This document shows, piece by piece, positions 49,180 through 64,000 of a DNA stretch of 64,000 nucleotides. The stretch spans positions 5,412,501-5,476,500 of the forward strand of contig NC_019676.1 of the NCBI RefSeq assembly GCF_000316625.1, given 5' to 3'. The position numbers and the translations under genes are program-made. The notes under the pieces are model-generated. The model ran no database searches, was not told the DNA's origin, and was given only the letters and a program-made list of their open reading frames with translations. How positions within the stretch are numbered: position 1 is the stretch's first letter; every line of letters starts with the position of its first letter. This DNA is from Nostoc sp. PCC 7107. GTDB taxonomy: Bacteria; Cyanobacteriota; Cyanobacteriia; Cyanobacteriales; Nostocaceae.

Positions 49180-50331
49180 ATGATAATGTTACCTAAATTC
49201 TACCAAAACTGCTTTCAAAATGTACTGACACCCGCACAGTACAAGATGCTAGAAATCTTACTAATGCTATTGCAATTTCATAAAACTGTGACAATTGAGA
49301 AACTAGCAACAGTATTTCCACAACCGATAAAATTTGAAAGTCGGAGGCGGAGTATACAAAGATTTTTACTACTACCTCAGTTGTCGATTCCATATCTGTG
49401 GTTTCCCCTGCTCAAACGATGGGTGAAAAATAGTCTGAAAAGAGGAGAGAAACGGCTAATATTTGCGATTGATAGAACACAATGGCGTTCACAAAATGTA
49501 TTTGTAATTAGTTTAATAGAACAAAAAAGAGCAATACCTGTGTACTGGCTATTGTTACCTAAAAAAGGATGTAGCAATTTGGGAGAGCAGAAAAAATTAA
49601 TTCGTCCACTATTGCAGTTATTTAAGGGATATCAAATGCTGGTACTGGGAGATAGAGAATTCCACAGTATAAAACTAGCAAATTGGTTACATAGCAAGGG
49701 CATTGACTTTGTATTGCGTCAGAAACAAGGTACTTATATTCGGCAAGAAAACCAATCACACCAACGCTTACAATCTTTGGGATTAACTCCTGGCATCTCG
49801 TTTTTTTTGACAGGGATTCAAGCAACTAAACAGAAAGGGTTTGCCAATTTTAATCTCGCCGGATATTACAAGCGCAAATATCGTGGAGTTGTTGAGCCTG
49901 CTGGCTGGTTTTTATTAACTAACCTTGATAGTCTCAAAGATGCCATTAAAGCATTTAAGTTGCGGAGTGGTATCGAAGCCATGTTTAAAGATTGTAAAAC
50001 TGGAGGGTATAATCTCGAATCTACTTATGCTGATGGTCAACGTTTGATAGCACTGATTTTATTAATTGCTATTGCCTATACTTGTGCTATTTTAGTTGGT
50101 CGTAATTCTCGCTCCTCTGGACTACAAAAATATGTTGGTCGTCTGAAGGAGTTACAACGATTGCACCGCCGACATAGTGCTTTTTGGATTGGTTTGTATG
50201 GTCAGTTATGGGTAGGGGCAATGGAATTTTGGGCTGATTTAGCTCATGAATTGATGCGCCTCAAGCCCAGTAAACTGCCATATTTTCAACAAGGTCTACG
50301 GGCTATGACTCTTATCCAGTCTGCTTTATAA
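49180..50331 (+). CDS. IS4-family transposase
   Basis: 383 residues, full length. The DDE catalytic residues are visible in 'LIFAIDRTQW' (Asp), 'QMLVLGDREFHS' (Asp) and the IS4 'Y-(2)-R-(3)-E-(6)-K' region 'FKLRSGIEAMFKDCKTGGYNLE' (Glu). The N-terminal part ('KLATVFPQPIKFESRRRSIQRFL') should bind the ends. It looks intact and potentially active. The C-terminal third is encoded again just downstream. Confidence 0.9.
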   Translation: MIMLPKFYQNCFQNVLTPAQYKMLEILLMLLQFHKTVTIEKLATVFPQPIKFESRRRSIQRFLLLPQLSIPYLWFPLLKRWVKNSLKRGEKRLIFAIDRTQWRSQNVFVISLIEQKRAIPVYWLLLPKKGCSNLGEQKKLIRPLLQLFKGYQMLVLGDREFHSIKLANWLHSKGIDFVLRQKQGTYIRQENQSHQRLQSLGLTPGISFFLTGIQATKQKGFANFNLAGYYKRKYRGVVEPAGWFLLTNLDSLKDAIKAFKLRSGIEAMFKDCKTGGYNLESTYADGQRLIALILLIAIAYTCAILVGRNSRSSGLQKYVGRLKELQRLHRRHSAFWIGLYGQLWVGAMEFWADLAHELMRLKPSKLPYFQQGLRAMTLIQSAL

Positions 50332-50351
50332 CTTTTTTGTCACCCCTTCAG

Positions 50352-50852
50352 CAGAAAGGGTTTGCCAATTTTAATCTCGCCGGATATTACAAGCGCAAAT
50401 ATCGTGGAGTTGTTGAGCCTGCTGGCTGGTTTTTATTAACTAACCTTGATAGTCTCAAAGATGCCATTAAAGCATTTAAGTTGCGGAGTGGTATCGAAGC
50501 CATGTTTAAAGATTGTAAAACTGGGGGGTATAATCTCGAATCTACTTATGCTGATGGTCAACGTTTGATAGCACTGATTTTATTAATTGCTATTGCCTAT
50601 ACTTGTGCTATTTTAGTTGGTCGTAATTCTCGCTCCTCTGGACTACAAAAATATGTTGGTCGTCTGAAGGAGTTACAACGATTGCACCGCCGACATAGTG
50701 CTTTTTGGATTGGTTTGTATGGTCAGTTATGGGTAGGGGCAATGGAATTTTGGGCTGATTTAGCTCATGAATTGATGCGCCTCAAGCCCAGTAAACTGCC
50801 ATATTTTCAACAAGGTCTACGGGCTATGACTCTTATCCAGTCTGCTTTATAA
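50352..50852 (+). pseudogene. Duplicated 3' part of the transposase gene
   Basis: An open frame that repeats the last 167 residues of the transposase without any start region. It arises from the 521-bp tandem duplication. The frame runs back only into the right inverted repeat, so no functional protein is expected: it has the Glu region but neither Asp. Confidence 0.9.
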
Positions 50853-61293: not shown

Positions 61294-61365
61294 GCCAGCA
61301 TAGCACAGTGGTAGTGCATCCGACTTGTAATCGGAAGGTCGCAGGTTCAAATCCAGCTGCTGGCT
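61294..61365 (+). tRNA. tRNA-Thr (UGU)
   Basis: A 72-nt cloverleaf: acceptor GCCAGCA/TGCTGGC with discriminator T, D stem GCAC/GTGC, and anticodon stem TCCGA/TCGGA with loop CTTGTAA (anticodon TGT). The T stem GCAGG/CCAGC has a central A-A mismatch (61343 and 61355). CCA is not encoded. This gene is the attachment site of the transposon that begins 9 bp after its 3' end, and its 61314-61330 segment is the guide's target. Confidence 0.95.
61311..61330 (+). other. CAST homing target: PAM plus 17-bp protospacer
   Basis: GTA (61311-61313) fits the GTN PAM known for Cas12k systems. The following 17 bp, GTGCATCCGACTTGTAA, running from the D stem into the anticodon loop, are identical to the spacer at 61594-61610 read on the minus strand. 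The transposon end starts 60 bp after the PAM. Confidence 0.92.
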
Positions 61366-61373
61366 TTAACTTA

Positions 61374-61495
61374 TGTCGAATAACTAATTATTTGTCGTTG
61401 TTAACAGATTGCTGTCGCTATTAACAAATTAATGTCACTGTTAACAAATTAGTGTCGTATAATGCTAATTGCGAAACGTTAACAAATTAATGTCG
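61374..61495 (+). mobile_element. Type V-K CAST transposon end (target-proximal, left end) with five TnsB-type repeats
   Basis: The end begins TGTCGAA. Five 17-bp repeats follow in one direction, consensus TTAACAAATTAATGTCG: 61381-61397 (degenerate), 61401-61417, 61421-61437, 61441-61457 and, after a gap, 61479-61495. The first four are spaced exactly 20 bp. Such arrays are the binding sites of the TnsB transposase in Tn7-like elements. By analogy with ShCAST, the end that carries the CRISPR and faces the target is the left end. The opposite end is outside the window. Confidence 0.9.
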
Positions 61496-61593
61496 TCTAA
61501 CCAATTTGATAAAGTGTTTGCAGACATCTATTGTACAGGAAATATAGCTAAATCTTTATTTGATGACTTCCCTGATAATATTCATAAATATGC

Positions 61594-61620
61594 TTACAAG
61601 TCGGATGCACCTTTCAACCC
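61594..61620 (-). ncRNA. Delocalised homing crRNA unit (truncated repeat plus 17-nt spacer)
   Basis: On the minus strand the last ten bases of the CRISPR repeat, GGGTTGAAAG (61611-61620), are followed by the 17-nt spacer GTGCATCCGACTTGTAA (61594-61610). It is separated from the terminal full repeat by 23 nt. The spacer matches the adjacent tRNA-Thr gene exactly. The truncated repeat keeps only the bases that pair with the tracrRNA. This is the arrangement described for homing guides of V-K CASTs. Confidence 0.93.
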
Positions 61621-61643
61621 TCTGTTAAATATTTTCTGACGCT

Positions 61644-61903
61644 CTTTCAACTCATCCCTAGCTGGGATAGTTGTTGAAACTTAGAGTCACCCAGTTTGGC
61701 ATTAGATACTATCTTTTTTCAACCTACCCCTAACCAGGATGGTCGTTGAAACCTGGATATGCTCAATACAAGGGTACAACCACGGTAGCGCCTTTCAACC
61801 CACCTCTAGCCGGGATGGTTGTTGAAACTTCGAGTCCTGGATAGCCTGTGTGAACGTCTTTTGCCCCTTTCAACCCACCTCTAGCCGGGATGGTTGTTGA
61901 AAC
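61644..61903 (-). CRISPR. Type V-K CRISPR array, four repeats and three spacers
   Basis: Repeats of 37 bp at 61867-61903, 61792-61828, 61716-61752 and 61644-61680. The first two (leader side, minus strand) are identical, beginning GTTTCAACAACCATCCCGGC and ending GGTGGGTTGAAAG. The third and fourth are increasingly mutated, as expected at the old end. Spacers are 38, 39 and 35 nt. The repeat closely follows the ShCAST repeat. No spacer matches this window by eye. Confidence 0.95.
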
Positions 61904-62039: not shown

Positions 62040-62097
62040 GGTTTTAAAGTTTTGGCGGGACTCCGGGGATTTTGCCCCCACTTTGACACGCCAAAAA
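62040..62097 (-). other. Inverted repeat between tracrRNA and array
   Basis: On the minus strand TTTTTTTGGCG ... CGCCAAAAC bracket a second GC-rich hairpin (GGGGGCAAAATCCCC). It directly follows the tracrRNA 3' part and may stop or pause transcription, or set off processing between tracrRNA and array. Confidence 0.45.
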
Positions 62098-62099
62098 AA

Positions 62100-62365
62100 T
62101 ATTTGGGAGGGTTCCCCCGACGAAGGGGGTGATTCAGTAGCCACCACTGTGGTAATCCGCACCGTTATGAATAACGGCTATAGCTAAAAGCCTTACTCCT
62201 TATTGCTGGGAGCGCACCTATCCCACCTATAGAATTCTAAAGATGGCAGCATCAGAAGCGGGCAGCTACAAGGGTCAGAAAGCATGACGGCCTTCCAACC
62301 GCCAAACTAACCCAGATTTTTCACAGTACATTGGCTTAAAAAAGCATGAACTGCGGCGCTGTTAT
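62100..62365 (-). ncRNA. tracrRNA of the V-K CAST
   Basis: The minus-strand sequence contains the conserved blocks of V-K tracrRNAs in order: AGCGCCGCAGTTCATGC at the 5' end, GGGTTAGTTTG, GCTTTCTGACCC, GTAGCTGC, GATAGGTGCGCTCCCAGCAA, GTGGCTACTGAATCACCCCC and GGGGGAACCCTCCC. CTTTC (62278-62282) and AACCC near the 3' end can pair with GAAAG and GGGTT of the repeat. The length of about 265 nt and the place between cas12k and the array are as in ShCAST. The ends are estimates. Confidence 0.85.
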
Positions 62366-62371
62366 AAAAAT

Positions 62372-62400: not shown

Positions 62401-64000
62401 TTAAATTAAAGCGGCTTGGCGTTCTTGGTAAGCAAAGACAGCTACATCTCGTGCTTTTTCTTGTGGACTGCCTCTGATTGGTTGTGTACCAATTTCAGTG
62501 GAAATTCCAGCTTTTGCAGCTTGGGATTTAATACATTCAATTAATCGACCGTAACTCCAGCGATGAACGCTCATGCGGTATTCTTTGGCATATTTTTGTT
62601 GAACTTCCTTATAACCAGGACATTTTTTCTCTGCTCTGGATTGGATTTCACTACTGATTTGCTCACGCATATCCCGGAGTTTTGGAAGAACTATGCTGCC
62701 TGCTTGATAGGTTTTGGCGATCGCAATAATTGCATCTGCTAATAATCTATCTATATATTGCCCTAACTCTGATTCACCAAAGGAGTTTGGCGCATTCTGT
62801 TTCTGAGCTTTGTGCCGTTCGTGAGATAGGCGTTGCTGTTGTTGTCGCTGACGATTGAGAAGATTGTAGTTTTCCCCAAGTAGTTGTTTGACGCTGCGAT
62901 AAGCTAGAACTTCATTTTTAACAACATCTACCACCGCTACTGTGACTGGCTTTTTTAGACCAAAACTAACGCCAACTAGGATTGAGGGTTGACCTTGATA
63001 CCTAGACTTGCTGGGACGAGGGAAAAGGTTATTAATTCTATCTAGCGTGGATTGTTGACGAGTGATAAAAGCTTGCTGTTGATCATTGAGGTCGTCTTTC
63101 TGTTTCGCTTTGGTTAAAGTTTCGTTTATTTTTGTGCTTTTCTCATCAACTACCTGTTGAGTTCCTTCAATAGTCCACATCCGAGTATCTAAAGTGCAGT
63201 AAAGATGTAGTTGATTGACTTTCCAGGGTTCACCTTTTTCTTCTCCTGGCGACCAAGCAAGCCTTCCTGAACGCAGAGTAAACAAACTGCTTGAGTATTG
63301 GTTTTTATGATTGCGTTTAAGTTCTTGATCTTCTAAGAAGCGTTTGAAGTAGTGCAAATGACGTTTATCGCAGTAAATCTCAAAGGTAAGTTTTCCCAAG
63401 CCATTGAATCGAACAAAGAGACGACCTTTGTCATTTTGCAGCCATGTCATATCTTCGTTAGATTCGTAAGCCACAGGAAAGGGGACATCAGCAGATTTTC
63501 TTAATAGTGCTGCTTGCCAAGCTTTTGCCTCATTTTCATTTTGAGGTACATTGGCTGTAGAAATTTCTAAAGTCTTTAACCACTCTTCCCCTGTTAAATC
63601 TCTACCTTTAGGTATGCGACTTTGAAGTTGGTTTTTTAATCGCTCAATTTCTATTTCCTTTTTGCGTCTATTTTTAGTAAATTCTTCTGAGTCTTCGTCA
63701 AGTTCACTAATTTGACAGTTATTTTTGAGCAGATATGCGATCGCACAACGAGTAAGAGGGTTTTGTGTTTGTTCGTAAGTGTTTAAAAGAATTTGAAAAA
63801 GTGAAGATTTTTCCGACTTTGTAGATTTTTTAGTCTTTTTGCCCTTTCTCTGGTTTTTATTCTGCTCGGACTGGGGGGTAAATTGGGTAAGGATTTCGTT
63901 GGCTTTAGTACGAATTGCGCTTAAGCTACATTGGCTTTCTTGTTCGAGTTGTAGATCACTTTTGAGAATTGTCAGCCAACGTTCTTTCCCTTCTATTTGC
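62401..64000 (-). CDS. cas12k: Cas12k, CRISPR effector of the type V-K CAST, N-terminus beyond window
   Basis: 533 residues are visible and the frame is open to the window edge; roughly 100 N-terminal residues of a protein of about 640 are missing. A GTG at 63474 is internal, not a start. Hallmarks are 'SRIPKGRDLTGEEWLKTL', 'NQYSSSLFTLRSGRLAW', 'RQQSTLDRINNLFPRPSK', 'ILVGVSFGLKKPVTVAVVD' (RuvC I with Ser where active Cas12 has Asp) and 'RWSYGRLIECIKSQAAKAGI'. The degenerate RuvC site means it binds but does not cut DNA, recruiting TnsC and TnsB. Confidence 0.96.
   Translation of the reverse strand, partial: QIEGKERWLTILKSDLQLEQESQCSLSAIRTKANEILTQFTPQSEQNKNQRKGKKTKKSTKSEKSSLFQILLNTYEQTQNPLTRCAIAYLLKNNCQISELDEDSEEFTKNRRKKEIEIERLKNQLQSRIPKGRDLTGEEWLKTLEISTANVPQNENEAKAWQAALLRKSADVPFPVAYESNEDMTWLQNDKGRLFVRFNGLGKLTFEIYCDKRHLHYFKRFLEDQELKRNHKNQYSSSLFTLRSGRLAWSPGEEKGEPWKVNQLHLYCTLDTRMWTIEGTQQVVDEKSTKINETLTKAKQKDDLNDQQQAFITRQQSTLDRINNLFPRPSKSRYQGQPSILVGVSFGLKKPVTVAVVDVVKNEVLAYRSVKQLLGENYNLLNRQRQQQQRLSHERHKAQKQNAPNSFGESELGQYIDRLLADAIIAIAKTYQAGSIVLPKLRDMREQISSEIQSRAEKKCPGYKEVQQKYAKEYRMSVHRWSYGRLIECIKSQAAKAGISTEIGTQPIRGSPQEKARDVAVFAYQERQAALI

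Follow-up and report, generated by a model that had tools for sequence, protein, structure and literature searches.

The element that begins at base 61374 of the window (the whole 64,000-nt stretch analysed here, bases 5,412,501-5,476,500 of a single 6,329,823-bp contig) is a complete type V-K CAST, and with a probability of about 93% it was homed to the adjoining tRNA-Thr gene by an anchor guide that it carries, through the mechanism proposed below. The guide is of the published anchor (homing) spacer kind, and homing by a guide that matches the neighbouring tRNA is already described for V-K CASTs (PMC9938897, in the passages covered, and reviews); the match itself adds one more example. Comparison with relatives further suggests that the anchor is under selection as a guide and that, of the available handles, its own fits the tracrRNA best.

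Guide, target and ends of the element

The attachment site is an intact tRNA-Thr gene (UGU) at 61294-61365 on the plus strand (ARAGORN; Rfam RF00005, 70.3 bits). Inside it, the 17-nt anchor protospacer GTGCATCCGACTTGTAA lies at 61314-61330 (plus strand), with the anticodon as its bases 13-15, directly behind the PAM GTA at 61311-61313 (plus strand), GTN being the Cas12k PAM according to the part of PMC9938897 that was covered. The same 17-mer recurs on the minus strand at 61594-61610 as the anchor (homing) spacer, directly behind a truncated repeat, R*, of 12 nt (GAGGGTTGAAAG, 61611-61622, minus strand). In conventional tRNA numbering, the PAM falls in the D-loop. The original prediction of an exact match between this spacer and the tRNA-Thr gene behind GTA was thus confirmed; it had also placed the unit correctly, but the extent it gave, 61594-61620, takes in only 10 of the 12 nt of the truncated repeat. 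Identity between guide and target ends at 17 nt, beyond which the guide reads GCATAT and the tRNA reads TCGGAA, in agreement with the full 17-bp heteroduplex in the Cas12k R-loop described in the covered part of PMC10761935.

It had further been claimed that such a match is not chance, with a genome-wide search for the 17-mer as the check. In the whole genome there are exactly two exact copies, guide and target, the number of chance copies expected being ∼0.0007 in 2 x 6.33 Mb by an arithmetic estimate, and a control search with the reversed pattern returned 0 matches. Allowing up to 2 mismatches adds only two sites, both with 2 mismatches; the bases preceding them are TTG and TCT, not GTN, and ARAGORN found no tRNA in the 3 kb around each. 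Because the 17-mer is unique as a guide/target pair and the near-matches lie outside tRNAs and lack a GTN PAM, the observation is real and not due to chance. Three array units fit the search pattern, which the fourth does not; in the same comparison with the flank, their closest fits had 8, 7 and 6 mismatches over the 17 positions.

The element was traced into the neighbouring stretch and ends at contig base 5,501,374, a length of 27,501 bp. Its left end carries repeated TGTCG/TGTCA motifs (61374-61500, plus strand, by sequence; the inner limit is approximate), and comparison with this end revealed a similar terminal sequence, inverted, at the right end (G000:C1:5501332-5501374). Both ends are flanked by the target-site duplication ACTTA, with the left copy at 61369-61373 (plus strand) and the right copy at G000:C1:5501375-5501379, as judged from the sequence and from an empty site. 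The PAM is 60 nt away from the left end, within the range of 46-82 nt with one exception of 147 published in PMC9938897 (passages covered). Because the insertion lies just past the 3′ end of the tRNA-Thr gene, the gene has been kept whole. The empty site came from a search of 80 related genomes with the right-flank sequence, after which the 20 resulting loci were inspected for tRNA-Thr: in L200, from the same-genus genome G391, tRNA-Thr is directly followed by the right-flank sequence with a single copy of the site (ACCTA), in L203 the tRNA-Thr is more distant and a different sequence lies behind it, and the remaining 18 of the 20 loci had no tRNA-Thr within the stretch examined. These sequences indicate that the insertion was precise, and that it either postdates the divergence from G391 or has been lost in that genome.

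The 3′ part of cas12k occupies 62401-64000 on the minus strand, and the 635-aa gene extends to 64308, beyond the window. Its product scores 977.4 bits with NF038191 (cut-off 150) and matches the PDB Cas12k chains, those of ShCas12k, with E values of 2.8e-242 to 1.1e-241. From the right end inward, Pfam matches identify a Mu-transpos_C protein (TnsB-like transposase), a TniB/TnsC ATPase and TniQ, and no TnsA was found among the 15 element proteins scanned, a set that leaves out some small ORFs. A 53-aa ORF that adjoins the cas12k start in reverse orientation looks, by eye, like an Arc-like regulator. The cargo includes the DISARM genes DrmD, DrmMI, DrmA, DrmB and DrmC together with IetS and IetA homologues (the five DISARM genes and the IetAS pair at L007:4703-12727 and L008:70-9384, inside the element and outside the window), a DUF2281 and PIN pair and two IS200-type transposase pieces. 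These pieces (L007:13080-13485) separate DrmMI from DrmA, whose profile match spans only positions 445-1165 of 1165. Elsewhere in the window, at 49180-50852, a 383-aa ORF judged by eye to be an insertion-sequence transposase is followed by a 171-aa ORF that repeats its C-terminal part verbatim, as if by partial tandem duplication.

Anchors and flanking tRNAs in related elements

In a first survey, genome contigs were scanned and 80 of 100 loci encoding a relative were kept; together with the present element, 53 of 81 carried an anchor that had 2 mismatches or fewer, and in 33 the match was exact. The enlarged set began with 162 regions, of which 21 were dropped as duplicates and 8 as too short, and in 100 of the 133 left (the present element included) an anchor matched the flank with at most 3 mismatches. 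The anchor search demanded that the first 4 spacer bases match and that the first PAM base be G, so mismatches at positions 1-4 cannot appear; under this rule 56 of the 100 anchors were exact to their own flank and 44 had 1-3 mismatches, and the PAM was GTN in 98 (GTA 61, GTG 19, GTT 13, GTC 5) and GCG in 2. The match ended directly after base 17 in 78 of the 100. Ninety anchors fell within a tRNA, of 24 kinds, and 52 of these 90 began at tRNA position 20-25 (position 21 in the present element), a start that, in conventional tRNA numbering, puts the PAM in the D-loop and the guide over the anticodon arm. Close relatives, with a Cas12k 81-91% identical to ours, differ in the tRNA they use: their anchors are to Thr, Ala, Gly, Val and Pro tRNAs. 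These comparisons indicate that, across relatives, the anchor tracks whichever tRNA adjoins the element. Hence the claim that the guide explains the choice of site gained support from the complete V-K CAST, the published distance and the anchors that follow the flanking tRNA.

Several results count against this reading. By the search rule, 33 of the 133 elements yielded no anchor, nor did 15 of the 40 further regions, which were taken from other orders of the class. Of the 100 anchors, 10 fall where no tRNA is annotated, and the truncated repeat of the present element is one pair below the full 8 with its tracrRNA. The V-K elements in which this rule recognised no anchor include some near a tRNA and some that are not; they may reflect other homing, decay or cuts at contig ends, and some of them end on short contigs (e.g. 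L056 and L062). In L098, a guide lies 990 nt downstream of the cas12k match behind a seemingly full-length repeat of the array type; it has one mismatch to the flank, outside a tRNA, and is perhaps a homing guide not yet truncated.

Alternatively, the element may have inserted by another route and only then taken its anchor from the flank, in which case the site would account for the match instead of the reverse. Both accounts predict a match to the present flank, and the 56 exact anchors are in line with copying. Guides common to hosts with differing targets are harder to reconcile with it: the L060 guide is exact to the target of L082 and has one mismatch to its own, and L080 and L109 carry a guide exact to the target of L111. 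Moreover, the PAM and the distance suit insertion by Cas12k. The 44 anchors that mismatch their own flank also speak against copying, but neither they nor the shared guides are decisive, because mutation of the tRNA after insertion could account for both. We consider copying after insertion very unlikely and retain homing by the guide as the preferred reading; from published V-K homing work and from guides that fit the target of another host better, we infer that the guide is older than the insertion.

As a separate observation, spacer position 15 collects mismatches between guide and target, with 14 of 51 over distinct pairs (64 distinct spacer/protospacer pairs, including L016, L021, L052, L060, L061, L117, L122 and L128), followed by position 17 with 7. 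In the common register position 15 is the third anticodon base.

Pairing of the truncated repeat with the tracrRNA

The CRISPR array (61644-61903, minus strand) has four 37-nt repeats at 61644-61680, 61716-61752, 61792-61828 and 61867-61903, and the two closest to the truncated repeat are degenerate. Three of its four spacers gave no match in 72,556 plasmids. A shared host array was considered as the source of the array repeat sequence; no copy with at most 3 mismatches exists outside the element in the genome, so the idea has no support here. The predicted tracrRNA region lies at 62090-62366 on the minus strand; its upper bound follows the start reported for Anabaena 7120, 35 nt beyond cas12k, and its lower bound is provisional. 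It contains the conserved anti-repeat context at the expected place and has a fold z-score of -2.65; an Rfam search returned no family matching it. The anti-repeat, AACCCTCC (62106-62113, minus strand), was recognised by this context, and the predicted fold leaves its nucleotides 1-7 free of pairing. GAGGGTT of the truncated repeat is the exact complement of AACCCTC in the tracrRNA, giving 7 contiguous pairs; the outermost position, A opposite C, leaves 7 of 8 paired. The predicted duplex is stronger than that of the array repeat by -1.3 kcal/mol.

In relatives, with the last 12 nt of the repeats compared, a tracrRNA with AACCCTC accompanies GAGGGTT in the truncated repeat and GTGGGTT in the array repeat, and one with AACCCAC accompanies GTGGGTT and GCGGGTT, respectively. 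Picking the anti-repeat by its best complement to the array was dropped, and it was instead picked from upstream context and place. All three parts were present in 84 elements; in 61 of them the truncated repeat made more Watson-Crick pairs than the array repeat, in 18 as many and in 5 fewer. The set was then reduced by hand to 81 because the anti-repeats of L029, L150 and L152 lacked the conserved context, and the anti-repeat of L141 was set by hand to the second candidate, a choice that favours the reading of a better handle. In these 81, the truncated repeat formed 8 of 8 pairs in 48, 7 in 23, 6 in 8 and 4 in 2, whereas the array repeat formed 8 in 3, 7 in 43, 6 in 27 and 5 in 8. In 69 of the 81 elements the truncated repeat gave the stronger predicted duplex, in 6 the two were equal and in 6 the array repeat gave the stronger one, with a median difference of -3.9 kcal/mol. 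The difference was clear at the sixth anti-repeat position, which was Watson-Crick paired in 71 of 75 tree-placed elements for the truncated repeat and in 18 of 75 for the array repeat, mostly mismatched there as T.T or C.A in two main groups.

These differences might instead be lineage drift, with better pairing arising by accident in a few clades. The raw count favours the truncated repeat at some wrong registers too (58 of 81 at -12 and 57 of 81 at +9), because truncated and array repeats differ in base make-up; it was therefore dropped as sole evidence, and contrasts between elements were used in its place. The outermost (eighth) position is also paired about equally often, in 60 of 75 truncated and 61 of 75 array repeats. 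On the other side, the truncated repeat averages 7.42 of 8 pairs at the true register and fewer than 4 at wrong ones. Over distinct pairs the truncated repeats average 7.0 of 8 (shuffled 5.55; 0 of 20000 shuffles as high), and array repeats 6.18 of 8 (shuffled 5.51; 1 of 20000), which shows that array repeats also covary with the anti-repeat but less than truncated repeats do, and to that degree lends something to drift.

For the contrasts, a Cas12k tree was built from 91 of 100 proteins, with 75 elements usable, and path-disjoint pairs of elements differing at an anti-repeat position were compared. Both members were Watson-Crick paired in 22 of 37 contrasts for truncated repeats and in 6 of 37 for array repeats, the contrasts being independent within a position and not across positions. 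The same tip pairs recur at several positions, which leaves some room for drift. Of the 15 contrasts in which truncated repeats failed, 9 did so through a G-U pair alone and the other 6 through a mismatch. When the anti-repeat was slid to 24 other registers, the rate for truncated repeats was at most 0.13, so that the contrasts single out the true register.

For the further sample of 40 regions, the context pattern was tightened and the zone slightly enlarged, both before the sequences were examined, and where two candidates occurred the first was taken. An anchor was found in 25 regions and all parts in 19, where 150 of 152 positions were Watson-Crick paired for the truncated repeat and 106 of 152 for the array repeat, with the truncated repeat better in 18, equal in 1 and worse in 0 (kinship is uncorrected in this sample, a point in favour of drift). 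Three anti-repeats that do not occur in the first analysed set, AACTCGCT, AATTCACC and AACCCGCT, were each accompanied by an exact complement in one or more elements of these other orders, which argues against drift; L260 has one G-U pair in place of the exact complement to its anti-repeat. Anchors without a recognised anti-repeat had an exact 8-nt complement in L142 (1 of 13 in the first set) and L256 (1 of 5 in the further sample), and the other 16, among them 12 of the first 13, had no 7- or 8-nt complement in the stretch searched, as drift would allow. Taken with both sides, drift seems to us very unlikely.

The unit might also be the decayed, functionless last unit of the array, as the two degenerate array repeats beside it could suggest. 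A relic would not be expected to follow tracrRNA changes at the true register, to show a like pattern in the 19 further elements, or to keep a match that stops sharply at 17 nt with no run-on in 78 of 100 anchors, and we regard decay as extremely improbable. The covariation indicates constraint on the truncated repeat, which looks like no relic: it appears to change together with the tracrRNA, more faithfully than the array repeats.

Proposed mechanism and relation to known systems

The transcription, processing and loading of the guide and the order of events are inferred as follows. A transcript of the tracrRNA-array unit would run beyond the array and yield a short guide of the 12-nt truncated repeat and the 17-nt anchor spacer. 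The truncated repeat would pair with the tracrRNA anti-repeat through 7 contiguous pairs and join Cas12k, which would then bind the tRNA-Thr gene at the GTA PAM across 17 bp. TniQ, TnsC and TnsB would insert the element 60 bp past the PAM, beyond the tRNA 3′ end, duplicating ACTTA. Beyond this locus, we lean towards a model in which V-K CASTs rank their guides by handle: the truncated repeat would follow the anti-repeat, the homing guide would win the tracrRNA and Cas12k, and homing would be the default, jumps guided by the array being exceptional. The spacer-adding machinery may hold the array repeats back.

The passages covered in PMC9938897 describe 118 V-K elements in which a truncated repeat (∼12 nt) goes with a 17-nt anchor spacer and a GTN PAM, and report small Arc- and MerR-type regulators near the cas12k start and a joint tracrRNA-array precursor in Anabaena 7120. 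The present element is like these cyanobacterial CASTs in repeat, spacer, PAM and spacing, in that the tRNA points at the left end and the array is read toward it, and in having, next to the start of cas12k and oriented the opposite way, a small putative DNA-binding regulator; the regulator here is Arc-like by eye and not CvkR, and the match itself shows no difference. Those passages do not mention pairing between truncated repeat and tracrRNA, nor did we find mention of this fit in the parts of the V-K literature covered, to which Saito 2021 and Hsieh and Peters did not belong. Delocalised crRNA homing of V-K CASTs to tRNA genes is treated in PMC11406308, PMC11656645, PMC12719977 and PMC8730458 (each in part). 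As in ShCAST, according to the parts of that literature covered, homing to a tRNA relies on a short delocalised guide, and the Cas12k is related to the ShCas12k structures; the tRNA and the cargo differ from those of ShCAST. ShCAST and delocalised crRNA homing are reportedly the subject of Saito 2021 and Hsieh and Peters 2021. Type I-F3 CASTs are Cascade based and are not known to have a tracrRNA. Their att-site guides likewise form a separate guide class for a chromosomal site (PMC11406308, passages covered).

For RNA-guided homing this locus is a clean and complete case: a relative shows the empty site, and DISARM and IetAS genes make up a defence cargo. The passages covered in PMC11656645 state that delocalised crRNAs match the repeats only partially and call their origin unclear; here the deviation is read as a fit to the tracrRNA, which bears on that origin. 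The choice between homing and array guides by one Cas12k thus becomes a testable question, and the fit suggests that delocalised guides can be recognised by tracrRNA complementarity, beyond likeness to the repeat.
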